The position numbers and the translations under genes are program-made. Under the pieces are notes generated by a model. That model was not told the origin of the DNA. It made no database searches and saw only the letters and a program-made list of their open reading frames with translations. From a virus, in IMG/VR virus record IMGVR_UViG_3300010883_000565, positions 1-22,206 of that record: a DNA stretch of 22,206 bases; one strand, given 5' to 3'. Shown here piece after piece: positions 2 to 21,715 of this stretch (the stretch's first letter is position 1; the number at the start of each line of letters is the position of its first letter).

Positions 2-148
2 CACTGTGTAGTGTTATGTGGCTATGGGCCTGGACTCTTCATCGTGAGGAATTCGTGGGGAACTGGCTGGGGTCATCGCGGGTATTGCTACGTGACGGAG
101 AGCTACGCCAAGGACTCGTTTAGTGAAGTGTTCGGTATCACTGTGTAA
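2..148 (+). CDS. Papain-like (C1A) cysteine peptidase, C-terminal end (partial)
   Basis: The frame is open from the left edge to TAA at 146-148 and gives the last 48 residues of a protein that begins outside the window. It reads HCVVLCGYG, then a few residues later FIVRNSWGTGWGHRGYCYV. In clan CA, family C1A, the catalytic His lies in a GHAV.(L/V)VGY motif and the catalytic Asn in the NSWG.xWG.xGY motif, so the first residue visible here is probably the catalytic His and the Asn of RNSWG (nt 50-52) the third member of the triad. The catalytic Cys, the propeptide if any, and the start lie upstream. The gene overlaps the polymerase gene by 26 bp if that gene starts at GTG 123. Its role is unknown; virion maturation, lysis or a host-directed activity are all possible. 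The family call is strong because the motif is near canonical. Confidence 0.85.
   Translation, partial: HCVVLCGYGPGLFIVRNSWGTGWGHRGYCYVTESYAKDSFSEVFGITV
110..114 (+). promoter_or_regulatory. Ribosome binding site deciding the polymerase start
   Basis: AAGGA lies 8 bases before GTG 123, an ideal distance. The next in-frame start, ATG 150, follows the upstream stop as TAATATG but has no SD at a useful distance. GTG 123 is therefore preferred, although the TAA-T-ATG arrangement recurs at other junctions in this genome, so ATG 150 remains possible. The choice changes only nine N-terminal residues. Confidence 0.6.
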
Positions 149-3100
149 TATGCAAGACGACGATACATACCCTAGGTCTAGCTCTCGGAAGTATGGCTCT
201 CCGTTGCCTAATGAATGGCCCGTTATTGAGCCGCCGGGAGCTGTTCGGATCGCGATTGTAGGCTCGATGCCGACGAAGAACGAAGACTACTATTCGAAGC
301 TCTTTATCGGGGAGGCTGGAAAGTTCCTCGATGCTGGGCTAGGGAAGGAGGGCCTGGTGAGGGCTCAGTGCCTCCTTTGCAACGTGTCATGGGTGAGGTC
401 GGAGCGAGGCTATCTTGACGAGTTCGAGTGGGACGGCAACGAGGTGCAGTGTAGCTTGGCTCACTTGGCAGAGGATCTGGAGAAGTTTGATCCTACGATT
501 GTGCTCTGTCTAGGTAACGAGGCACTGCATGTTATGAAGGTCGGCAACGTCGATCCAGGGAGGAAGAAGGGCTTGTTTAATTGGCCTCACAAGATCCAGA
601 CGGCGAGAGGGACTCTCTTCGAGTCGAACTTTCGACCGGGGCAGAAGTGCCTGGGGGTGCTTCATCCGAACAACATCTTGAAGGACTTCTCTGATCAGTC
701 TTACTTCGCCTTCGACATGGAGAAGCTCAAGCGAGAGGCAGGGAGCAAGGAGCTGAAGCTTCCGAAGCGGGATATCAAGGTCTTGAAGACGATAGATGCC
801 GTGGAGGATAAGCTCTGGGAGGTTGATTGCTGGGCCTATTGTGCAATTGATATCGAGGGGAGCCAGTCGAACATCACCTGCATCTCGTTCTCGTGTAACC
901 CTGACTTCGCTTATGTGGTGCCGTTCGCGCATTACGATGGCTCTAGCTTTTGGAGCGAGGATGAGGAGATTCGGGCTTGGGTGCTGGTGCGGGACGTCAT
1001 CGAGAACGAGAGAGTTAAGAAGATCGCTCAGAATGGGACGTATGACTTCTACGCACTGGCTTTCGGGCTAGGGATCTGCGTGGAGGGCTACGAGCACGAT
1101 ACGATTATTGCCTGGTGGGAGCTTTATCCTGAGATGAGAAAGGGCTTGGCTACGCAGGTCTCGATACTGACGGATGAGCCGTATTACAAGCCTGACAAGG
1201 CTCACGGTGGGCTCAAGTTCAACTCCGACGAGCACTTCTGGAGGTATAACGGGATCGACTCTGCTGTGACATATGAGTGCTGGGTTGAGGAGATGCGGCG
1301 CATGGATGCCGGGCAGAGGAAACACTACGCTTTCAACATGGAGCTGCAAGGCGGGCCGGTGCTCTACATGATGCTGAGGGGGATTCTCTTCGACGTGGAG
1401 AAGGCGGCGAAGCTCCAGGCGAGCACGAGGGCTGAGGTCTCGAAGCTTCAGCGGTTGATTGATAAGGAGAGCGGGATCACGTTCAGCTGCGAGGCGAAGA
1501 AGGATGACTTCTCAGACGTATTGCAAATCGTTCGCAATGAGTTCTGCTCCAAGAGGATCAAGAAAGCGGAGCTTGTGACTGTCGAGCGGTGGAAGCCTAT
1601 GAAGTGGAACGGCAAGCGGTGGGTCAAGAAGGGTCCGCTCGTCATGGTTGAGCCTACGGACGGTCCACTGTTGGGCAACGACGGCGATCTCCCTACGACA
1701 AACGGTTTGAAACTGACACTAGCTTATGTTAAAGCGTTCGTGACGAAGGAGAAGCTGGTGGACTACGAGCCGAAGAACTTCAAGGAATGTGAGTTGTCTG
1801 TGTTGGAGTCGAAGCGTGCTCTGTGGATTGAGGCGAAGGGAATCATCGCGAGGATTCGATCTGATGGCGTTTCGGAGGACTTGCTAGGCGAGTTATCAAT
1901 AAAGCTTGGGGTGGCCGTGAATGTGGGCTCTACGCAGCTTGATGGGGATTCTCAGACGTTTCTCTATGGGACGTGTAAGCTTCCGAGGGTCTTTGTCAAT
2001 AAGAGGGGACAATTCTCGGTTGAGGAGCCTGCTGCACACAGGAACCGCATCGAGAATGGTGTCGTCAAGAGTCACGCTGACAAGAAAGTTGTGTCGAGTA
2101 TGCAGGCGTTAGCGAAGCTGTATGCCAAGACTGAGGATGTGCGGGCTCTCTGGGTGCTCCAGATCCGGAGGCTGAGGAAGATCGTGACGGACTTGAACGT
2201 GAAGCTAGACGAGGACTCGAGGTGTCGGGCTAGTATCTCGCTTGTGAAGGAGACGGGGAGGATGGCGGAGAGCAAGACTCCGGCTGGGACGGGCTTGAAT
2301 AGGCAGGCGCTGAACAAGGACTTGCGAGAGATTTGCGTGGCAGACCCGAAGAGTTCGCTCTATCAGTTCGACCTGGAAGGTGCCGACAACTGGACGGTAG
2401 CAGCGGAGTGTGCTAGGTTAGGAGATAACACCATGCTAGAGGATTTAAGAGCCGGTCTAAAGCCAGCTAAGATTCTCTCCCTGATCGTTCACCTAGGTGC
2501 CGACAAGGTCCGAGGGTTGATCAGGAACGAGATCAAGCAAGAACTGAGAGACGCGAAGGATATGCCGGGGTGGTTGTATCCCGCTTGCAAGGCTGGAGTG
2601 CACGGTTGCGTGACAGAGGGACACGAAGTCCTGACGAAGCGTGGCTGGATTCGAGTCGAAGACTACAAACTAGGCGAGCCTATTATGGTGTATGATCTTG
2701 AAACTCGATTCGGGTTTTTCGAGGAGATCGAGGATTTCTACACTGGCGATCATAGAGGCCCTACGTATGAAATTGAAGGCAATAGTCTTAGTCTGTGTGT
2801 AACCGACTGCCATACGATGCCTTACACTACGAACGGCAATCCAAAGTCGAAGAGAGCTGACGATTTGTGTGGTTTTAAGGATGCTCAGTTACCTACGGCT
2901 TGCACTTACATAGGAGGAAGCCCGAAGAAGCACGTTCAACTAATAGCTGCTTTTCAAGCCGACGGGTCTATTCACCATAAACAGATCCGATGGCACTTCA
3001 AGAAGGAGAGAAAGATTCAGCGTCTACTCATGCTTTTACGCGAAGCTGGCATGGAGCATTCTATGTCTCGATACAAAGACGGATCGACACACATATCAAC

Positions 3101-4115
3101 TAAGGGTGATATCGCTCAAAAGTGGTTCGGCTTCAAGAAGGCTGGAGCTTATTTGCTGGAGTGGGATGCTCAGAGTTTAAAGCTATTCCTTGAGGAGCAC
3201 GCTTACTGGGACGGTTATCTGAAGCCAGATGGATCTTTTGAAGTCTCGGCTGTTAATAGAGAGCACCTAGATTGGTTAGCGACGGTAAGCAAATTGGTGC
3301 AGAAGGGCTATACTTGGAATAAGGTTAGAACGAGTGGTTACGGGTCAATCGTGCATTCGGTTAAATTTAACAATCGAACCTATGCGTCTAAAAGCAGCTT
3401 AGATAAATTTGAACTGTCGAACTTGAGATTGAATCGCGACAAACTGGTTTATTGCCCTGTGACTTCCACGGGATTCTTCATGGTGAGGAGAAATGGGAAG
3501 ATATCAGTGACGGGCAACTCGAGCTACCTCATGGGGTGGGTTACGATGGGCGAGACTGTCCTCAAACACTCACTCCATTCCCTACCCCTGGATCTGTCTT
3601 CGGCGTCTCCTCTTATCCTTAAGAAGAAGAACATCGAGAAGATTCAGGACGCTTTCTTCTCTAGGTGGAAGGGCGTTAAGAAGTGGCACGAGGCTGTGTC
3701 GAAGAACCTACTCGACAACGGCTACGCCCAGACGAGTGTCGGACATCGGCGGACGTTCATGGGACGCAAGGCTGAGTATCGACAGGGTGCGAAGCTAGCG
3801 AACAGGGAGACGCTGAAGGAGGCACTCTCTACGTTGCCACAGTTTTATACGACGTATGCAACGAAGCTGGCACTGTGGATGTTATGGTTTGACCCTGAGA
3901 ACCGGACGGAGGAGGGTGACTTGAAGCTGGAGCCGATCCTCTGTGTTCACGACTCGTTGTTGGGTCAGGCCAAGGATGTCTACGAGGAGTGGGCTAAGGC
4001 TAGGATCAAGACCTACTTCGACAACGAGATTGAGATTGCGGGGATGCCTATCACTATTCCAGCAGAGGGAACCATAGGCCGCGACTGGGGCATGAAAGAC
4101 GAGGTAATCATATGA
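123..4115 (+). CDS. Fusion of UDG-like domain, 3'-5' exonuclease and family A DNA polymerase, with intein
   Basis: This is the phage replicative DNA polymerase, made as a 1330-residue precursor (1026 after intein removal). Residues about 41-190 match the UDG family 4/SPO1-type fold: VGSMP (46-50), FIGEAGKFLD, CNVSW, VLCLGNEAL and LHPNNIL. The usual catalytic GEAPG motif is GSMPT here, so glycosylase activity looks lost. The DnaQ-like proofreading domain is intact: D243 and E245 in AIDIEG, D308 in NGTYDF, Y375 and D379 in YNGID. Polymerase motif A is FDLEGADNW (D750). Motif B is KAGVHG/SSYLMG, split by the intein between G828 and S1133, with K823 as the expected dNTP-binding Lys. Motif C is VHDS (H1276, D1277). 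The stop overlaps the start of the next small gene (ATGA). SPO1-type polymerases also carry an N-terminal UDG-like domain. Confidence 0.93.
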   Translation: MKCSVSLCNMQDDDTYPRSSSRKYGSPLPNEWPVIEPPGAVRIAIVGSMPTKNEDYYSKLFIGEAGKFLDAGLGKEGLVRAQCLLCNVSWVRSERGYLDEFEWDGNEVQCSLAHLAEDLEKFDPTIVLCLGNEALHVMKVGNVDPGRKKGLFNWPHKIQTARGTLFESNFRPGQKCLGVLHPNNILKDFSDQSYFAFDMEKLKREAGSKELKLPKRDIKVLKTIDAVEDKLWEVDCWAYCAIDIEGSQSNITCISFSCNPDFAYVVPFAHYDGSSFWSEDEEIRAWVLVRDVIENERVKKIAQNGTYDFYALAFGLGICVEGYEHDTIIAWWELYPEMRKGLATQVSILTDEPYYKPDKAHGGLKFNSDEHFWRYNGIDSAVTYECWVEEMRRMDAGQRKHYAFNMELQGGPVLYMMLRGILFDVEKAAKLQASTRAEVSKLQRLIDKESGITFSCEAKKDDFSDVLQIVRNEFCSKRIKKAELVTVERWKPMKWNGKRWVKKGPLVMVEPTDGPLLGNDGDLPTTNGLKLTLAYVKAFVTKEKLVDYEPKNFKECELSVLESKRALWIEAKGIIARIRSDGVSEDLLGELSIKLGVAVNVGSTQLDGDSQTFLYGTCKLPRVFVNKRGQFSVEEPAAHRNRIENGVVKSHADKKVVSSMQALAKLYAKTEDVRALWVLQIRRLRKIVTDLNVKLDEDSRCRASISLVKETGRMAESKTPAGTGLNRQALNKDLREICVADPKSSLYQFDLEGADNWTVAAECARLGDNTMLEDLRAGLKPAKILSLIVHLGADKVRGLIRNEIKQELRDAKDMPGWLYPACKAGVHGCVTEGHEVLTKRGWIRVEDYKLGEPIMVYDLETRFGFFEEIEDFYTGDHRGPTYEIEGNSLSLCVTDCHTMPYTTNGNPKSKRADDLCGFKDAQLPTACTYIGGSPKKHVQLIAAFQADGSIHHKQIRWHFKKERKIQRLLMLLREAGMEHSMSRYKDGSTHISTKGDIAQKWFGFKKAGAYLLEWDAQSLKLFLEEHAYWDGYLKPDGSFEVSAVNREHLDWLATVSKLVQKGYTWNKVRTSGYGSIVHSVKFNNRTYASKSSLDKFELSNLRLNRDKLVYCPVTSTGFFMVRRNGKISVTGNSSYLMGWVTMGETVLKHSLHSLPLDLSSASPLILKKKNIEKIQDAFFSRWKGVKKWHEAVSKNLLDNGYAQTSVGHRRTFMGRKAEYRQGAKLANRETLKEALSTLPQFYTTYATKLALWMLWFDPENRTEEGDLKLEPILCVHDSLLGQAKDVYEEWAKARIKTYFDNEIEIAGMPITIPAEGTIGRDWGMKDEVII
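2607..3518 (+). other. Intein with LAGLIDADG-type homing endonuclease, in motif B of the DNA polymerase
   Basis: Residues 829-1132 of the polymerase precursor (304 aa) form an intein. Cys829 begins block A (CVTEGHEVLTKRGWIRVEDY). Block B is TDCH (T894-H897). The central part has two dodecapeptide-like motifs, LIAAFQADG (940-948) and HAYWDGYL (about 1026-1033), typical of a DOD/LAGLIDADG homing endonuclease. The C-terminal block ends RRNGKISVTGN, with Asn1132 followed by extein Ser1133. The residue before the terminal Asn is Gly rather than the common His, a variant known in other inteins. Joining the flanks restores KAGVHG-SSYLMG, a good family A motif B. The element is more A/T-rich than its flanks and has only two CTAG sites, consistent with separate ancestry. 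Boundaries are well set by Cys1, Asn and +1 Ser. Confidence 0.92.
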
Positions 4116-4204
4116 CAAAAGAGCAGCAAGAACTACTCGAGACGCTTATCTTGATCATCTGCGCGGTCTCGTTGATCATCGCCTACGCATTGAAATTTTC
4201 ATAA
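4112..4204 (+). CDS. 30-residue single-span membrane peptide
   Basis: ATG 4112 overlaps the polymerase stop as ATGA, and GAGGT at 4101-4105 stands 6 bases upstream, so translation initiation and coupling are both well supported. The peptide starts MTKEQQELLE and continues with about 17 mostly hydrophobic residues (LILIICAVSLIIAYAL), then KFS and TAA. This is one short transmembrane helix with a charged, probably cytoplasmic N-terminus. No family is recognised. Such coupled micro-membrane proteins in phages can be lysis regulators, superinfection factors or membrane tethers for the upstream enzyme, but nothing in the sequence picks among these. It is the last gene before the structured non-coding stretch. 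Confidence 0.65.
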   Translation: MTKEQQELLETLILIICAVSLIIAYALKFS

Positions 4205-4207
4205 TTA

Positions 4208-4284
4208 TGCTGGCTAGGGCGTAGAGCCGAGGGAAGTCCTCGGACGGGTTCATACTGATCCCTTGATTGATCACCTAGTCAGCA
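4208..4284 (+). ncRNA. Candidate structured RNA: three-way junction
   Basis: Three stems nest exactly. P1 pairs 4208-4218 with 4274-4284 (11 bp, one G-U). P2 pairs 4227-4232 with 4238-4243 (CCGAGG/CCTCGG, loop GAAGT). P3 pairs 4256-4260 with 4269-4273 (TGATC/GATCA) and abuts P1 with no spacer. Joining strands are 8 nt (4219-4226) and 12 nt (4244-4255). There is no coding frame of note. It could be a ribozyme, a cis-acting leader, a processed small RNA or a packaging/replication signal. It does not contain the hammerhead core (CTGATGA and GAAA), and I do not recognise a named riboswitch. Confidence 0.45.
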
Positions 4285-4306
4285 CGCTTTACCCATCAGT
4301 GTTCAC

Positions 4307-4355
4307 CTCGCGTTATTCATGCGGGACATAAAAGTAGCGGATTCGTCCGCATACT
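4307..4355 (+). promoter_or_regulatory. Two leader hairpins, one with a UUCG tetraloop
   Basis: CTCGC 4307-4311 can pair with GCGGG 4321-4325 (one G-U, 9-nt loop). Then AGTA-GCGGA (4333-4341) pairs with TCCGC-A-TACT (4346-4355) around a TTCG loop (4342-4345), with a bulged A at 4351. UUCG-capped stems are very stable in RNA. No U-run follows, so neither is a convincing intrinsic terminator. The 5' arm of the UUCG hairpin has an alternative partner downstream (AGCGGATT 4336-4343 with AATCCGCT 4396-4403). Confidence 0.5.
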
Positions 4356-4361
4356 ACGTCA

Positions 4362-4414
4362 GCGAGTAGAGAGACGGACTTATCGATGGGTTTGCAATCC
4401 GCTTCTCTACTCGC
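4362..4414 (+). promoter_or_regulatory. Inverted repeat enclosing the start codon of the 4386 gene
   Basis: An 11-bp perfect inverted repeat, 4362-4372 (GCGAGTAGAGA) with 4404-4414 (TCTCTACTCGC), is extended by CGGA 4375-4378 with TCCG 4398-4401 across a 2x2 internal loop. ATG 4386 lies in the apical loop. The inner pairing competes with an 8-bp alternative helix to 4336-4343. This could regulate initiation at 4386, or block it so that ATG 4437 is used. There is no U-tract after the right arm, which argues against a terminator. Confidence 0.5.
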
Positions 4415-5492
4415 ACACTTTCAAGACAACAAGACTATGAAACTAAAACTAAACATGGAGCTTCCCTCCGAGATCGAACTCCCCGACGAGTTGCTAGGTG
4501 TCAATGCCGAGCTAGAGAAACGAGTGGCCGTTGTCGAGAACGAGCTACTGAAGCGGACCTATGCCGAGGTCAAAGATGTCGTGGCGAGTGCGCCTGACAA
4601 GTCTGACCCTATCGATGCCGAGGACGTTGAGAAGCTGAAGCGGGACGTGAGAGACTTGAGGATTCGAGCTGACCTCTTCGCTAGTGAGATCGACTCGCTT
4701 AGGAATGAGAAGATGACAGAGAGGCTAGATGGCGTGGTGTCAATCCTGGACTTCTGCACGACGAGAGAGGAGCAACTAGAGGTTGTTAAAGGCAAGCGAC
4801 CCATCGACGGCTACTTGGCGAGTTCGATAGCCAAGCTAGAGGAGATCGGCGGATTCAGGGGAGGCATAATCTCGTTACCTGTGGGGAAACTACGTGCAAC
4901 TACGAGCATTGCAGTGCCTACTGGGGTCTCGCTAGTCGGTCAAGGCAAGTTCCAAACCAGTCTTACGGTAGACATATCAACTTCGATACTCAGTTACGGT
5001 ATCACCGTGGCGGGAAGAAGTTCTTCTGTCACGCTGCGAGGGTTTAGCTTGAACGTCACTGCTAGCCGTGGGGATATCAACGGTATTCTGCTTGGTGATG
5101 ACTTAGTCTCGTGCGAGCTGGCTGATCTGAGCGTCCTCAGCTCTTCGACGCTAGCTAAGAGCGTAGGTGTCACTCTACCTAACGGTGACGCAGTCCTCCT
5201 GGAGATCAACAACTGCGCCATCATGGGATGGAAGGTCGGACTTCGGACAGCAGCTTTGATGTCGAAGACATCGTGTAGAATCGGCAACTGCAATACCGGC
5301 ATCATGGTGCTGAAGGGACTGCTAGATGACGCCTCCGAGATAAGCGAATGTAATCTAGATCACTACATAGGGCGTGAGTCGCTCGGTTACGAGACTAGGA
5401 AGGGCTCAAACACTTTCGACGCAAGAGAGGTAGCCGGAGGGAAAGCTACGTTCTCTGTCGGAACCTTCCAGACCGGCGACACGCTACTCTAG
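4386..5492 (+). CDS. Coiled-coil plus beta-helix protein, probable tail or receptor-binding protein
   Basis: The 368-residue product has a charged, heptad-like N-terminal third (ELEKRVAVVENELLKR, then DVEKLKRDVRDLRIRADLF and further), fitting a trimeric coiled coil. From about residue 158 it has short Gly/Ser/Thr/Val-rich strands: GGIISLPVGKLRATTSIAVP, TGVSLVGQGKF, then ITVAGRSSSVTLRGFSLNV. This rhythm is typical of the pectin-lyase-like parallel beta-helix of phage spikes. No catalytic motif is seen. The start is uncertain: ATG 4386 lies in the loop of a long hairpin behind a weak purine-rich GAGAGACGG, while ATG 4437 (MKLKLNMELP) follows A-rich sequence and opens a more natural N-terminus. 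It is the only virion-type gene on the + strand, and its stop touches the stop of the opposing gene. Confidence 0.75.
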   Translation: MGLQSASLLAHFQDNKTMKLKLNMELPSEIELPDELLGVNAELEKRVAVVENELLKRTYAEVKDVVASAPDKSDPIDAEDVEKLKRDVRDLRIRADLFASEIDSLRNEKMTERLDGVVSILDFCTTREEQLEVVKGKRPIDGYLASSIAKLEEIGGFRGGIISLPVGKLRATTSIAVPTGVSLVGQGKFQTSLTVDISTSILSYGITVAGRSSSVTLRGFSLNVTASRGDINGILLGDDLVSCELADLSVLSSSTLAKSVGVTLPNGDAVLLEINNCAIMGWKVGLRTAALMSKTSCRIGNCNTGIMVLKGLLDDASEISECNLDHYIGRESLGYETRKGSNTFDAREVAGGKATFSVGTFQTGDTLL

Positions 5493-8400
5493 TTATCTCG
5501 ATAGCTCCGAAAGATCAAAAGTTCTGCTGGCTATATCTTCCTCGTCTCCAATGAACTCGTCAATAGCTTGGTAGGCACTTGCGAGGGCTGCTGGATTGTA
5601 GTCCTTGGCCAACGACTCTAATACAACTCCACTAGCCATAGCAATTCGAATGAATGGTAGGAAGTCGTCTGGTTCGGTCCTCTTGGCTAGTTCTCTGATC
5701 CGAGGACTAGTCAGAAGGGTAGCAGCCAACCGGTATTTAATGTGTGTGTAGGCCGAACCCCACTGTAGCTTGAACAATTTCGTGATGACTCCTCCAGCTG
5801 CTATGCCTCCTGCCTGAGCTGAGACGTCTGCTGGTGGGACGGTAGCTATTTGAACGCGAGCTAAGTCATCTAGGTCATTCATTATTTCAGAACCTAGAAC
5901 AGCTCTTAACTTTCTCTCTCCACCTCTGATCTCCGCTGTCAACTTCTGACCATCAAAAGCAACAACCCTATCGCCCTTGAGTAGCTTGAGAGAATCTTCG
6001 GTGGTTGCGGATCTAGCTGAGTCCTTAAACAACTGCTCGACGGTGAGTGACCTGACATCGTCCATCAACCCAGGAGACTTCTCTAGTATAGCTACAACCT
6101 CTCTAACTTCGTCAAGGCTACCAGTCAGCACTTTGTTGACGAAGTCGTCTGCGCTTACGATGGTCGAGATATCTGTGCCATCCTTCTGAGCTTTTACGAG
6201 CCTGTCGATGAGCCCGTTGCGGAAGCGTACATTGCCTGCCTGTATGGATTTAAGTGCTGTCTCGATGTTTGTTTTGGTAAACTGCTTTTTCGCTAGCAAC
6301 TCGAAGATTTTAGCGTTTGGTATTCCTTCTCTCATAAGGGCTGCACCCTCGTTAACGTAATCTTGTAGAGCCCTCCATTGAGCCTCTCCTCCTAGCATGT
6401 CAGAGACCATCGAGTCACTTTTCAACCCTTGTAGTCTCGTGACGAAATTCTTGAGGTTTACGATACCAGCACCTTGCTCTGTGGTGTTTAGTATGGCGGA
6501 AAGAGCTGTCCGCTTGAACGTATCGAAAGTCTCCTCCCCTCTAGCTAGGGCTGTAGCAGCTAAACCAGCAGCATCCGCGTTGGGCGGGATGTCAGTGAGC
6601 TTCTTGGTCAGTAACTCTTTGACTTTAAAATACTGATCCTCATTAGTTAGCGTCTCATCAAAGATCTGTCTCGGACCTAACTTGGTCTGGGTATCATCAG
6701 CTAACAGGGATATGATACGCTTATCTTGTAGTCGTCCCACGTTTCTCTTGTAGAACTTGTTAGCGGCTTCGTAACTCTCTCGGAGTGCTGGGTCTGTCAC
6801 CTGCGCTAGTCCTTCGTCCAGGGATCTAGTTAAGGCTGCGGCGAGGTCTTTCCTCATTTTAGATGACGTGTCATCGAGAACCTGGGTGGCACTGAGACTG
6901 TCAAAAAGAGATGTCCTAAGTGATCGTATCTCATTAAGAGGTGTTAGGTCGTCTAGTTCAGCAATGCCAGCCAGTCTTCGCATCAAGTCAGATGGGATCA
7001 GCTTCTCATTAGGGACTCTGCCTCCTCCTGTGGTCACCGTCGTCGTTATTGGTCTGCCTAAATCGTCTAGAATTAGAGAGGTTTCCTCAACCACCTTTTC
7101 GGGTTGCGTCTTCTTGATCAGGTCCTTACGTATCTTCTCTGCTGCCTCTTTAAGACTCTTGATTGGTAGCAGAGGGTTCTTCAGTGCGATGCGTGCGTAT
7201 AGTTCATCTGATATCTCACTAAAAGTTAACTTTTCTGCAATGGCAGACCAACGAATGAGTCCTCCAGACGCTCGTTCGGACAATCCGGCATTGGCTTTAG
7301 GCGACGACACTCGGATTAGCTCATCTAGCTCTTTGTTAGCTGCTCGGATGCCTTCGTGAATGTTTTTAGCGATCATGTCCGTTGCGCTACGAACCTCCTC
7401 GGCGACTCTAGTGACAGCTCTGCGGTTGACCTCATCATCAAATGGCAAGTCCGGTAAGTCTCGCTTCCCTCTCCCTGTCAAAATCCAAGCCTGTAATTCT
7501 ACCATCTGCTTTTCTCTGGCTCTCTCCTGAAAACGGAAAATACTTTTGGCTGAGGGAAACTTACCCGTAAAGATCTCGGCACCTTGTAGTGTTGGGCTTC
7601 CTGTGAGTTGACCTAGAGAGAAATCGAAGCCTAGTCCTCCAGACTTTTCCTTTAGTCGTTGAGCCGCAGCAAGTCCTTCTTGGATCACAGAACCCTTCCC
7701 TTGGATAAGCGTCGTGTCTATGACTTTCTTCAGTCCCGCAGGCAGCAAAGACATCGTGATTTCAGCAGCAACTTCAGTCTTCAGAGACTTGGCTCTGGCT
7801 TGGATACGTTCTCCTATCTTCCCAAGATCCTGCCTTGCTGCCGCACCTGTAAGAACGTCAGACCCAACTTGAGCGGTCTTCTGCCCTAAGACAGCACCAG
7901 CTACGGCAATAGCCCCCCTCTTCAGCGCACCTTTTGACGCTTGCCTTGCTAACTGACCTACGACGACAGCACCTGGACCGCTTTTTAGAGCCAGAACAGT
8001 ACCTCCCGCCGCAGCTGCCATCTCCACTATTAGTCCTCCAATGTCGAAAAGATCTCGGAGGCTCCCTCCTCGCTCGTCGAAGAGTAGATCCTTCTCCTTC
8101 CCCGTAGCAGGATCAACGAGCCCACGCAGTATTGTGTTACCGTCAGGCAGCTCCTCTAGCTCAATGTTTTTAAATTGCTGGTTCAGAAGGTCTCGACGAG
8201 TCTCAGGGTCATCTGTTAAACCACCTAGAAAGCGACCAACGAAGCCAACACCCGTTTGGGTGTCGAGTTCGATCCGCTCTCCAGCTTCGTTGAACCGACC
8301 ATATTCAACCTGGAACCCGTTTTCGGTGAATGCTGTGCCTGATGCGTTAAGATTACGCCTATCACCTGGACCTCTCGGCACAGGGTTTAGTTCCGAGGCT

Positions 8401-8798
8401 GGCGCTGGGCCTAGTGACGCACTTCCTGCCACCTTTGCAACCCCAGCCATGACGTCAGCTGGAGTAGGAGGATCGAAAGGAGGAGCAGAAACAGGAGCAG
8501 GGGTTTGGGCTTCTCCGCCAGTCTGGTCAATGTTAAGGCTCGTATCGATGACGACCTCACCTGATGCTATATTTCTTTGGTCTCCCTTGAAACCTGGGAG
8601 GAGAGGAAGAGTAGCTGGATCAATACTAGGCGGGGTATTAGCCGCTTGAGCAGCACTAGAGATGCCGCCGATTACATCGCCTGTGACGAACTGCTGTTCG
8701 AGCTGATCAGTAGTAATGCTAGGGCTAAGAGTTGGTGTTGCTACGGAATCACCTGATTCGAAATCACCTGAAATGAACTGTTCTTCTCGGCTAGCCAT
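5493..8798 (-). CDS. 1101-residue internal virion / DNA ejection-type protein
   Basis: This is the largest and last gene of the structural array. The N-terminal 150 residues are low-complexity, rich in Pro/Gly/Ala, and carry short repeated peptides (EEQFISGDF at 6-13, EQQFVTGDV at 34-42, DQRNIASGEV at 73-82). Residues about 250-310 are Gly/Ala-rich and hydrophobic with interspersed basic residues, which could insert in a membrane. The rest is long, charged and mainly helical. In podoviruses, three such genes at the end of the array encode the internal core that is ejected to make a channel, so a gp16-like role is inferred from position and size. No lytic transglycosylase motif was found, although T7 gp16 has one. 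The ATG follows the upstream stop by 8 bp and has no SD. Confidence 0.6.
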   Translation of the reverse strand: MASREEQFISGDFESGDSVATPTLSPSITTDQLEQQFVTGDVIGGISSAAQAANTPPSIDPATLPLLPGFKGDQRNIASGEVVIDTSLNIDQTGGEAQTPAPVSAPPFDPPTPADVMAGVAKVAGSASLGPAPASELNPVPRGPGDRRNLNASGTAFTENGFQVEYGRFNEAGERIELDTQTGVGFVGRFLGGLTDDPETRRDLLNQQFKNIELEELPDGNTILRGLVDPATGKEKDLLFDERGGSLRDLFDIGGLIVEMAAAAGGTVLALKSGPGAVVVGQLARQASKGALKRGAIAVAGAVLGQKTAQVGSDVLTGAAARQDLGKIGERIQARAKSLKTEVAAEITMSLLPAGLKKVIDTTLIQGKGSVIQEGLAAAQRLKEKSGGLGFDFSLGQLTGSPTLQGAEIFTGKFPSAKSIFRFQERAREKQMVELQAWILTGRGKRDLPDLPFDDEVNRRAVTRVAEEVRSATDMIAKNIHEGIRAANKELDELIRVSSPKANAGLSERASGGLIRWSAIAEKLTFSEISDELYARIALKNPLLPIKSLKEAAEKIRKDLIKKTQPEKVVEETSLILDDLGRPITTTVTTGGGRVPNEKLIPSDLMRRLAGIAELDDLTPLNEIRSLRTSLFDSLSATQVLDDTSSKMRKDLAAALTRSLDEGLAQVTDPALRESYEAANKFYKRNVGRLQDKRIISLLADDTQTKLGPRQIFDETLTNEDQYFKVKELLTKKLTDIPPNADAAGLAATALARGEETFDTFKRTALSAILNTTEQGAGIVNLKNFVTRLQGLKSDSMVSDMLGGEAQWRALQDYVNEGAALMREGIPNAKIFELLAKKQFTKTNIETALKSIQAGNVRFRNGLIDRLVKAQKDGTDISTIVSADDFVNKVLTGSLDEVREVVAILEKSPGLMDDVRSLTVEQLFKDSARSATTEDSLKLLKGDRVVAFDGQKLTAEIRGGERKLRAVLGSEIMNDLDDLARVQIATVPPADVSAQAGGIAAGGVITKLFKLQWGSAYTHIKYRLAATLLTSPRIRELAKRTEPDDFLPFIRIAMASGVVLESLAKDYNPAALASAYQAIDEFIGDEEDIASRTFDLSELSR

Positions 8799-8806
8799 AG
8801 CTGTGC

Positions 8807-9943
8807 TTAGGGTATGTTAAGTGCTGGTGTAGCTAGAGGGAATGACTCGTTAGCTTGGAAAGGTGCGGACCTCCAGAGTTTTCTCAGTGCCGAATCACTG
8901 AGATGACTCAGCTTCCCCGTTTTCCTGGCGACGAGTAACTCGTCTTGAGTCAGCATGTTAGTGGGCAGATTCTCAGCCTGCATTTGCAGTGGGATCTGCA
9001 TACCTGCTGCGACGAGAGATTGTTTGTTAGATTCAACTAGCAATCGCCCTGTCCTTGATACTGCCCTTGCATATCGCTCTGGGCTGTCAATGAAGTCGAG
9101 GCCAATGTCTTTGATTAACCTGTTTACCTCATCTTTATTTATCTGTCCGTCTGACCGCAAAGCTCTAACTAGTTCAGCTGAAAAAGCTTTTTGCGAGGCT
9201 ACGATATCTGTCGCAGCCCCTGGCGTCTTAGCTCCCACACGTTCGAAGAACCTGTTAAGGTAACCTATTGGTCCTATAGTCTCATCCGTTGACAGAGCTG
9301 CGAGCATCGAAGCGTTCTGCACCACCCTGAGAGACGCTCCTACAGAAGCTTGCAAGTTAGTCTCAGTCGATGTAGTTGGCTCGAAAACTTGACCGTTGGT
9401 TCGACGTATAAGAGGTTTACCGTCAGGACCGTAAATCGTCTCAGAAGATTGAGGTGGATTTCTGAACGTGCCACCACCCCCGGTCATGCTGGCTAAAGGT
9501 AAATTATTGCCCTTTGCTATTTTTGCAGCATCGGTGAACTCGGCTTTTTTAGCTTCCACTTCTAGTATCCCGTTTACTCGATTGAAAAACTGCCCGACGA
9601 CCTCGTGGTTCGCAGACGTGCCGTTGACCATGCCCATGAGATTCGGGATGTCCTCCGGGGGGGCGTCTTTTGCGATCCAGGCTGTGTAAGCTTGAGTGAA
9701 TTCTAGATCTTTCTCCTGCTCTGCTAGCTTGAGGAACTGCTTGGCTCGCCCTTCGGTAGCTCTAAGGCCAGCCGATAAGTTCGCTATACGATTCTGCTCT
9801 CGATTTATGCCTAGTCCGACGTCGCGTTGGTCTAGCTCACGGTCTCGTTGGGCTGATTGGTAGCCTTGCACGAAGAACTCCCCGAAGGGTGCACCTCCGC
9901 TGACGTTCTTAGCTTGCTCGAAGATCTGTGCTACTGGATCCAT
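8807..9943 (-). CDS. 378-residue internal virion-type protein
   Basis: This is a helical, Gln/Ala/Arg-rich protein without signal peptide or obvious membrane span. The N-terminus (MDPVAQIFEQAK, then GYQSAQRDRELDQRDVGLGINREQ) and the glutamine-rich helices resemble phage internal core proteins. A flexible Gly-rich segment (MTGGGGTFRNPPQSSET) separates two helical parts at about residues 150-170. The second of three genes in the ejection-protein position, it starts as TAATATG one base after the preceding stop, with a weak AGGG about 7 bases ahead of the ATG. A gp15-like role is inferred from gene order only; no diagnostic motif is visible. Confidence 0.55.
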   Translation of the reverse strand: MDPVAQIFEQAKNVSGGAPFGEFFVQGYQSAQRDRELDQRDVGLGINREQNRIANLSAGLRATEGRAKQFLKLAEQEKDLEFTQAYTAWIAKDAPPEDIPNLMGMVNGTSANHEVVGQFFNRVNGILEVEAKKAEFTDAAKIAKGNNLPLASMTGGGGTFRNPPQSSETIYGPDGKPLIRRTNGQVFEPTTSTETNLQASVGASLRVVQNASMLAALSTDETIGPIGYLNRFFERVGAKTPGAATDIVASQKAFSAELVRALRSDGQINKDEVNRLIKDIGLDFIDSPERYARAVSRTGRLLVESNKQSLVAAGMQIPLQMQAENLPTNMLTQDELLVARKTGKLSHLSDSALRKLWRSAPFQANESFPLATPALNIP

Positions 9944-20292: not shown

Positions 20293-21498
20293 TTAGGAAG
20301 CGCAAACGAGCGTGCAGCCCATTGGATCACAACGGTTATGAACGAAAGCGACACCGCGCCACGTTTCCTTCGGCTTGCCTGCGTGTCCCAACTGGAGACG
20401 GTGATAGATCACAGTTCCGTCAGGGTTACAGGTTCGATCAATGATGTTCTTCAACGTCACAGCTCCAGTGAAGTTCACGGGATCGAACTTGAAGTTCGGG
20501 TGCGGATCGGTTGGAGGTCGAGGAATCAAAGACTCCATGACCTCGGCATCAAACAAGAATGACTCTTCATCAGCAGCCGTCTTCCACGTAGGATTGACGA
20601 TAGCCTCTTGACCCTTCGTAGCGTTGCTACCAAGAGCGAAGGCCGGGATCTCGGTGAATACTCCAGCAGCACAAGAGAACCTACGAGGATAAGGATCAGC
20701 GAGCCAAGCAATGTCGCCATACGAGTGAGAGACCCCGAAGGCTCGCACTAGCAGGTTATTGAGATTGCTAAGTCGAATATCCTCTCGGATCTCGGCGTTC
20801 TGCCGGATGATGTTCCCTCTCGTCTCGTTAGAAACGATCATAATACCTAGTGGCGAGCCACCGGCACCGCGAAGCAGAGCATCGGCTCCAGCACCTTCAC
20901 GCATTTGATCGATGAAGTAATACCTCACGATAGCCATGTGAAGAGGCTGAGTAGGACAAGCTGCTGGGTAGGTCGTTGCTAGAGTGTTCGTGTTAGTTGC
21001 ACCACTGGCACAATCATCGACGACCACTTTGGTCTGACAGAGACGGAAGTACTCGTGGCGATACTTGATCTCCCACAAGATGCGGGAATAGTCTCCCAGG
21101 ATTCCGGCTACACTCTCCAGTTGATTCTGGAGGTCGAAAGCTGGCATGATATCAATGTTACAGATATCTGGGCCTTCGCGAGCGATTCGCTCTAGTGAAA
21201 AGTTTCGCGTCGTCGAAGCGATGGGAATTTTCTCGCTAGGAGGCAAACAAGAGCCGCCAGCTTGACCATCAGGGATGACGTCGTTAGGTTGAATCGAAGT
21301 CCAACTAGGATCGGCTTCGGTTGGGGCAGAGCGTTCGTAGAAGAGGACGTTCAAAGACGGTCCCATCCCATTCATCCACTCGCCGCGACGGATGATATTG
21401 AGCCAAAGGGATCGTTGAAAGACCCTTCGCTCCATGATCGGCACGACAAACCTTCCGGTTTCGTTGTGCACGAAGTTAGTTACAGCTTCACAAGACAT
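20293..21498 (-). CDS. Probable major capsid protein (401 aa), Cys-rich
   Basis: Size, first position in the structural array, a long structured leader, and following small head genes all fit the major capsid protein. The sequence has an N-arm-like start (MSCEAVTNFVHNETGRFVVPIMERRV), a Trp/Arg helix (FQRSLWLNIIRRGEWMNGMGPSLNVLFYERSAP), a long amphipathic helix region (MPAFDLQNQLESVAGILGDYSRILWEIKYRHEYF) and later beta-rich segments (YHRLQLGHAGKPKETWRGVAFV). I do not see a specific HK97-fold signature, and no scaffold or protease gene lies in the window. Eleven Cys residues are unusual for a phage capsid protein, three of them in the last residues CDPMGCTLVC. The ATG has no SD and lies directly after a 9-bp inverted repeat. 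Confidence 0.55.
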   Translation of the reverse strand: MSCEAVTNFVHNETGRFVVPIMERRVFQRSLWLNIIRRGEWMNGMGPSLNVLFYERSAPTEADPSWTSIQPNDVIPDGQAGGSCLPPSEKIPIASTTRNFSLERIAREGPDICNIDIMPAFDLQNQLESVAGILGDYSRILWEIKYRHEYFRLCQTKVVVDDCASGATNTNTLATTYPAACPTQPLHMAIVRYYFIDQMREGAGADALLRGAGGSPLGIMIVSNETRGNIIRQNAEIREDIRLSNLNNLLVRAFGVSHSYGDIAWLADPYPRRFSCAAGVFTEIPAFALGSNATKGQEAIVNPTWKTAADEESFLFDAEVMESLIPRPPTDPHPNFKFDPVNFTGAVTLKNIIDRTCNPDGTVIYHRLQLGHAGKPKETWRGVAFVHNRCDPMGCTLVCAS

Positions 21499-21715
21499 AA
21501 TGACAAACAGTTAAGTTGCGAAACACACAATCACGCTCTAGCAATCCGCTAGAGCTGCGTATTTCCTGTTTGTCCCCGGTCAGCGGGACCATTTCGACCT
21601 TTGTAAATGAATCCTAAGATTCGTCGAAACAGTTCAATGTCTTGTGACGGGCTGAACTAGGCCCATATTAGCTCGACTCCACGAGCTTACATATCTTCAC
21701 CTCCGTGTCAAGTGT
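21499..21715 (-). promoter_or_regulatory. Structured leader upstream of the capsid gene
   Basis: These 217 bp hold no gene of note but a series of stems. They are GACAAACAG 21502-21510 with CTGTTTGTC 21566-21574 (9 bp), enclosing GCTCTAGC 21535-21542 with GCTAGAGC 21548-21555 (8 bp, 5-nt loop). Others are TTTCGAC 21592-21598 with GTCGAAA 21623-21629 (7 bp), enclosing GAATC/GATTC 21609-21613/21618-21622, AGTTCA/TGAACT 21631-21636/21653-21658, and AGCTCG/CGAGCT 21670-21675/21682-21687. A GTCCC/GGGAC alternative (21572-21576/21585-21589) competes with the 9-bp stem. The capsid ATG follows the 9-bp arm after CATT and lacks an SD. A promoter may lie here; see the rejected TTGACA. Confidence 0.55.
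21687..21704 (-). promoter_or_regulatory. AUG-UAA start-stop minigene with perfect SD
   Basis: Read on the minus strand, GGAGG (21704-21700) is followed by 7 bases and then ATG (21692-21690) directly followed by TAA (21689-21687). The SD strength and spacing are better than for most true genes in the window. It follows the FkbM-type gene stop by 11 bases. It may trap or load ribosomes on the capsid leader, act in translation control, or be an accident; a 10-codon GTG frame overlapping the SD is the alternative. Confidence 0.5.

Follow-up and report, generated by a model that had tools for sequence, protein, structure and literature searches.

A conserved structured RNA, probably held together by a kissing interaction, in front of a tail-like gene of an uncultivated phage

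The DNA analysed here (the window) is a fragment, 22,206 bases long, from an uncultivated phage. Folding and comparison with related contigs show that, in its predicted plus-strand RNA, the region in front of a tail-like gene forms a branched domain closed by the helix P1 and, farther downstream, a 12-bp stem, P6, which ends 22 nt before the start codon. On this sequence evidence, the conserved structure is almost certainly real. The element is best read as a structured 5′ leader that serves the tail-like gene, and we assign a probability of roughly 0.65 to its action in cis on this gene. A 7-bp kissing pairing, supported on two sequences, appears to tie the two ends of the RNA together.

The element lies in a gene-free gap of 232 bases between a tiny open reading frame (ORF) and the tail-like gene (Table 1), and the virion genes on the minus strand converge on the polymerase gene and the gene for the 351-aa protein. 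This 351-aa product contains a coiled-coil followed by a beta-rich part. It matched no Pfam family, and it is only tentatively called tail-like; its structural model had a low confidence of 37, too poor for a fold search. The element was compared with its counterparts in two relatives, G003 and G004, which are longer contigs identical to each other across the element stretch. The C-terminus of their polymerase is about 70% identical to that of the window, and the gene order (polymerase, small ORF, gap, and tail-like gene) is the same. It was also found that the uracil-DNA glycosylase domain of the polymerase is family-4-like, and that the intein-like insertion occurs in G003 and G004 too and is absent from the homologue in G001.

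Table 1 Positions of the element, its parts and the neighbouring genes in the window
Feature	Position	Strand	Remarks
DNA polymerase A gene	123-4115	+	N-terminal uracil-DNA-glycosylase domain and intein-like insertion; genomic context of the element
Tiny ORF	4112-4204	+	30 codons; overlaps the polymerase stop; read from the sequence
P1 domain	4208-4284	+	P1 (4208-4218/4274-4284, 11 bp) closes a junction with P2 and a weak P3
P2	4227-4232/4238-4243	+	In the minimum-energy fold; within the P1 domain
P3	4256-4260/4269-4273	+	UGAUC/GAUCA; possible; weakest helix
Small hairpin	4284-4302	+	ACGCU/AGUGU; loop UUACCCAUC displays the kissing strand 4291-4297; window fold
Kissing strand 1	4291-4297	+	ACCCAUC; predicted to pair with 4385-4391
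P4 hairpin	4307-4325	+	4307-4313/4319-4325; window fold only, not confirmed by the relative
P5, UUCG hairpin	4333-4355	+	Outer pairs with one double change
P6 hairpin	4362-4414	+	12-bp stem 4362-4373/4403-4414; loop with conserved AUCGAYGGGUU (4382-4392)
Kissing strand 2	4385-4391	+	GAUGGGU; in the P6 loop; predicted to pair with 4291-4297
Spacer	4415-4436	+	22 nt; open; conserved CACTTTCAA
Tail-like gene	4437-5492	+	351 aa; ATG 4437; from homologue alignment

The folding energy of the region 4200-4440 was −83.7 kcal/mol, as compared with a mean of −64.2 kcal/mol for the shuffled sequences (z = −4.1), and none of the 200 shuffles was as stable. The sub-region 4326-4420, when folded alone, gave a z of −5.2. 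When 367 segments of 200 nt were scanned on the plus strand, the segment 4201-4400 ranked third, and it marks the second distinct region after that at 21361-21680. A reading made from the sequence alone (the sequence-only reading) had placed a compact structured RNA at the border between the replication block and the tail-like gene, and this description is borne out by the folding energy and by the retention of the fold in the relatives. Among the helices that it named, P1, P2, the UUCG hairpin, and the long hairpin are all contained in the minimum-energy fold, while P3 is only weakly present: at this site, the fold favours a nearby GGG/CCC pairing over UGAUC/GAUCA.

The corresponding gap of the relatives was folded independently. 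It gave a z of −4.0 and yielded P1 with 11 bp, P2 with a loop of 5 nt, and P6 with 12 bp, and these three helices are built mostly from letters different from those of the window. When 43 pairs were compared between the window and the relative, 22 were found to be altered on both sides and none was broken; these counts come from two independent sequences with registers set by hand, and the independent folds do not depend on the registers. The P6 stem is the clearest case, with 10 double changes and 2 unchanged pairs among 12, and no single-side change or broken pair. For P1, 10 pairs were compared (6 double changes, 1 single-side change, 3 unchanged), and for P2, 6 pairs (3 double changes, no single-side change, 3 unchanged). 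Smaller numbers were obtained for the hairpin at 4284-4302 (1 double change, 1 single-side change, and 2 unchanged among 4) and for the outer pairs of P5 (1 double change, no single-side change, and 3 unchanged among 4). A MAFFT alignment, by comparison, displaces the P1 and P6 arms. With their position unconstrained, stems of 12 bp or more arose in 2.5% of the shuffles of the window and in 12.5% of those of the relative. The compensatory changes anticipated by the sequence-only reading were encountered in P1 and P2, with no pair broken, but not in P3, nor in the alternative helix that it had proposed, which is absent from the relatives. Besides P3, the relative gives no support to P4, the inner P6 stem, or much of P5, and in the P5 region its own fold favours another hairpin. 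The letters are best conserved in two blocks: the linker, CTTTACCC[A/G]TCAGnGTTCA, which is the longest conserved block, and AUCGA[U/C]GGGUU in the P6 loop.

These replacements bear on the possibility that the inverted repeats act in the DNA, in replication, recombination, or packaging, rather than in an RNA. The element adjoins a DNA polymerase gene, and pieces of the minus strand fold as well (z = −3.0 and −5.8), which would suit such a DNA-level element. However, the stem letters are almost fully replaced between the two lineages, which sequence-specific binding of a duplex would not permit. Moreover, G-U pairs occur in P1, P2, and P6 and thus fit a plus-strand RNA, and a contact between two loops requires a single strand. 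Taken together, a role at the DNA level is highly improbable.

The two blocks of best-conserved letters contain the strands of the kissing helix, which the sequence-only reading had not noticed. The strands 4291-4297 and 4385-4391 can form seven Watson-Crick pairs. Six of the 7 pairs compared are unchanged in the relatives, none shows a single-side change, and one is compensatory, being A-U in the window and G-C in the relatives; that is, the only differing base of the P6 loop block is matched by a change in the linker. When the linker and loop blocks were shuffled, 7 pairs were reached in 0.37% of the trials. Because the linker strand sits in the loop of the small hairpin in the window fold, the contact is probably one between two loops, namely, a kissing interaction.

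The placement of the element is constant relative to both of its neighbours. On the upstream side, P1 is located at the stop codon of the small ORF in both lineages: the tiny ORF of the window ends 3 nt before P1, and the stop codon of the relative shares 2 nt with the P1 arm. On the downstream side, the distance from the end of P6 to the ATG is exactly 22 nt in the window and the relatives alike. The tiny ORF itself (4112-4204 in the window; 2163-2249 in L012) has 28-30 codons, contains one hydrophobic stretch, and overlaps the polymerase stop in the sequence ATGA in both lineages; its product is probably a membrane peptide.

The start codon at 4437 is indicated by two observations. One is that the 351-aa protein and its homologues align only from the methionine encoded there. 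Another is that, in the distant homologue of L002, a stop codon stands immediately before the methionine matching 4437. The sequence-only reading had instead taken ATG 4386, in the loop of the long hairpin, as a start codon, and had proposed that two mutually exclusive helices around it toggle translation as a switch or thermosensor. The 8-bp perfect pairing on which this proposal was built, 4336-4343 with 4396-4403 (AGCGGATT/AATCCGCT), does exist in the window. It has no counterpart in G003 and G004, however, and at least one perfect 8-bp complement was found in 19.8% of the dinucleotide shuffles of the element; ATG 4386 is replaced by ACG in the relatives. In addition, the bases −22 to −1 before ATG 4437 are mainly unpaired, with a mean unpaired probability of 0.57 in the window and 0.86 in the relative, so a thermosensor of the start-hiding form is unlikely. 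Since the supposed start codon is not kept, the alignable start is at 4437, the 8-bp helix lacks a counterpart, and the start region is open, two exclusive states around a start codon are left unsupported, and we consider such a switch scarcely credible. Nor does the element create the opening, because the spacer of the window was predicted to be slightly more open when the element was removed (0.74 as compared with 0.62). A Shine-Dalgarno sequence is missing from the tail-like gene, as it is from most genes of the window.

Whether the element belongs to a described family was examined using Rfam 15. The window element had no match up to E = 10, and none at the curated cut-off; the element of the relative gave only spurious sub-threshold matches, the best of which, to a microRNA family, scored 21 bits where the cut-off is 69. 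No match was found to the known ribozyme families in Rfam. The element, thus, belongs to no Rfam family at the curated cut-offs, in agreement with its earlier description as a candidate for an undescribed one. Scans of viral contigs with three DNA patterns (the linker, the linker plus the loop, and the loop plus the 3′ block) recovered true copies only in G003 and G004; the other matches were rejected, as they were without the fold, without a complementary partner, or inside a coding sequence. Queries of the viral contigs with the polymerase and capsid proteins (single sequences and profiles) and with the tail protein yielded no further contig covering the locus, the polymerase profile found nothing among the genome contigs, and the phage records gave no match when searched with the element, the polymerase C-terminus, and the tail and capsid proteins. 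In G001, whose polymerase is 49% identical, the region before the tail gene has a 9-bp hairpin (z = −1.7) without a common motif, and the element is absent there.

These searches leave room for a different kind of RNA. The element may instead act in trans, as an independent small RNA of the phage or as an RNA that cleaves itself, and be placed before the tail gene by chance. Its compact fold with conserved unpaired letters would suit such an RNA, and a new RNA class is possible because Rfam has no such family. What speaks against this explanation is that the distance to the tail start is identical to the base in both lineages, and that the plus strand of 4000-4600 contains no terminator-like site and no promoter-like site of the sigma-70 type, the only type sought. 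An intrinsic terminator was likewise rejected, as there is no G+C-rich hairpin with a T run on the plus strand of this region. A search for a phage-type single-subunit RNA polymerase gave no match in four records, and its control was likewise silent. We judge an RNA acting in trans to be improbable.

Another structured leader was observed in the window. It occupies the minus-strand gap from 21715 to 21499, before a 401-aa putative capsid gene, and shows the strongest fold signal in the window (z = −4.9); the homologous stretch in G004 gave a z of −6.2. Its stem GACAAACAG/CUGUUUGUC is conserved and reaches to within a few bases of the ATG, and the inner hairpins are re-paired in relatives; the leader was also noted upstream of the 401-aa gene in L003, L004, L005, and L006. 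No credible Rfam match was found for it. Among the gaps of G004 tested, the tail and capsid leaders stand out, together with single segments at 7.3-9.5 kb. The latter belong to a stretch of roughly 2 kb that separates divergent blocks of genes (L056, about 7350-9530), with no convincing ORFs and a few segments of z < −3. Judging from the translations, a run of glycosyltransferase- and methyltransferase-like genes precedes the putative capsid gene in L006 (2135-8227) and in the matching part of G004.

A cis-regulatory role, which the sequence-only reading had already suggested, remains the best reading of the tail-gene element, although by a mechanism other than a switch. The locked fold would act post-transcriptionally and control the gene at the end of the replication operon: it may wall off an open ribosome-binding window and set the output of the tail protein from a polycistronic message. 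Control might be exerted by a protein that binds the kissing complex and alters the fold, or by ribosomes that, on completing the tiny upstream ORF, occupy the 5′ strand of P1. Initiation without a Shine-Dalgarno sequence is known in Flavobacterium johnsoniae, where it is modulated by structure close to the start (PMC6847099). We infer translational control of the tail gene with a confidence slightly short of even odds. A more specific version, a new class of leader in which the kissing helix forms and breaks as ribosomes terminate on the tiny ORF at P1, is a long shot. If it were true, translation of the polymerase operon would be coupled to the output of the tail protein without a Shine-Dalgarno sequence, and the lineage would hold two different structured leaders, the second being that before the putative capsid gene.

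The amounts of protein may alternatively be set through mRNA decay rather than initiation. In that case, the locked fold with its 12-bp stem would serve as a nuclease site or as a shield, separating the polymerase and tail parts of the transcript and protecting one of them. This would suit a long and nearly perfect stem that stands where the replication genes meet the virion genes and whose letters are free to vary as long as pairing is retained. The T4 gene 32 transcripts are cleaved 71 nt ahead of the start (PMC3014915). A plain stem, however, needs neither conserved loop letters nor a covarying kissing pair nor a fixed 22-nt spacer, and we regard processing or stabilization as rather unlikely. 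The cis-acting leader, if it is one, offers a testable case of message control, which combines strong compensatory evidence, a defined kissing contact, and a constant spacing to the start with the lack of a Shine-Dalgarno sequence, and it would represent a new RNA family to be sought in related uncultivated phages.

To our knowledge, large structured leaders that precede virion genes are little known in DNA phages other than T4. The present element resembles the structured-RNA families of Rfam in being a conserved structured RNA with covariation, but no family matches it at the curated score. Among the T4 leaders, those of e, soc, 49, and I-TevI are similar in that the structure adjoins the start and early readthrough could reach the gene (PMC3014915). 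In these genes, the Shine-Dalgarno sequence or the AUG is inside a helix, whereas here the start region is mainly open. The leader of T4 gene 32 is closer in this respect, as a pseudoknot is followed there by an unstructured ribosome-binding stretch (PMC3014915); both are phage leaders with a fold locked by a tertiary contact and then such a stretch, which in our case is known by prediction. The two differ in architecture and in product: in T4, a hairpin pseudoknot lies about 67 nt upstream of the gene for a single-strand binding protein, gp32, which binds the leader in autoregulation, while the present element is a kissing-loop fold of about 210 nt that ends 22 nt before the gene for a coiled-coil, beta-rich, tail-like protein.
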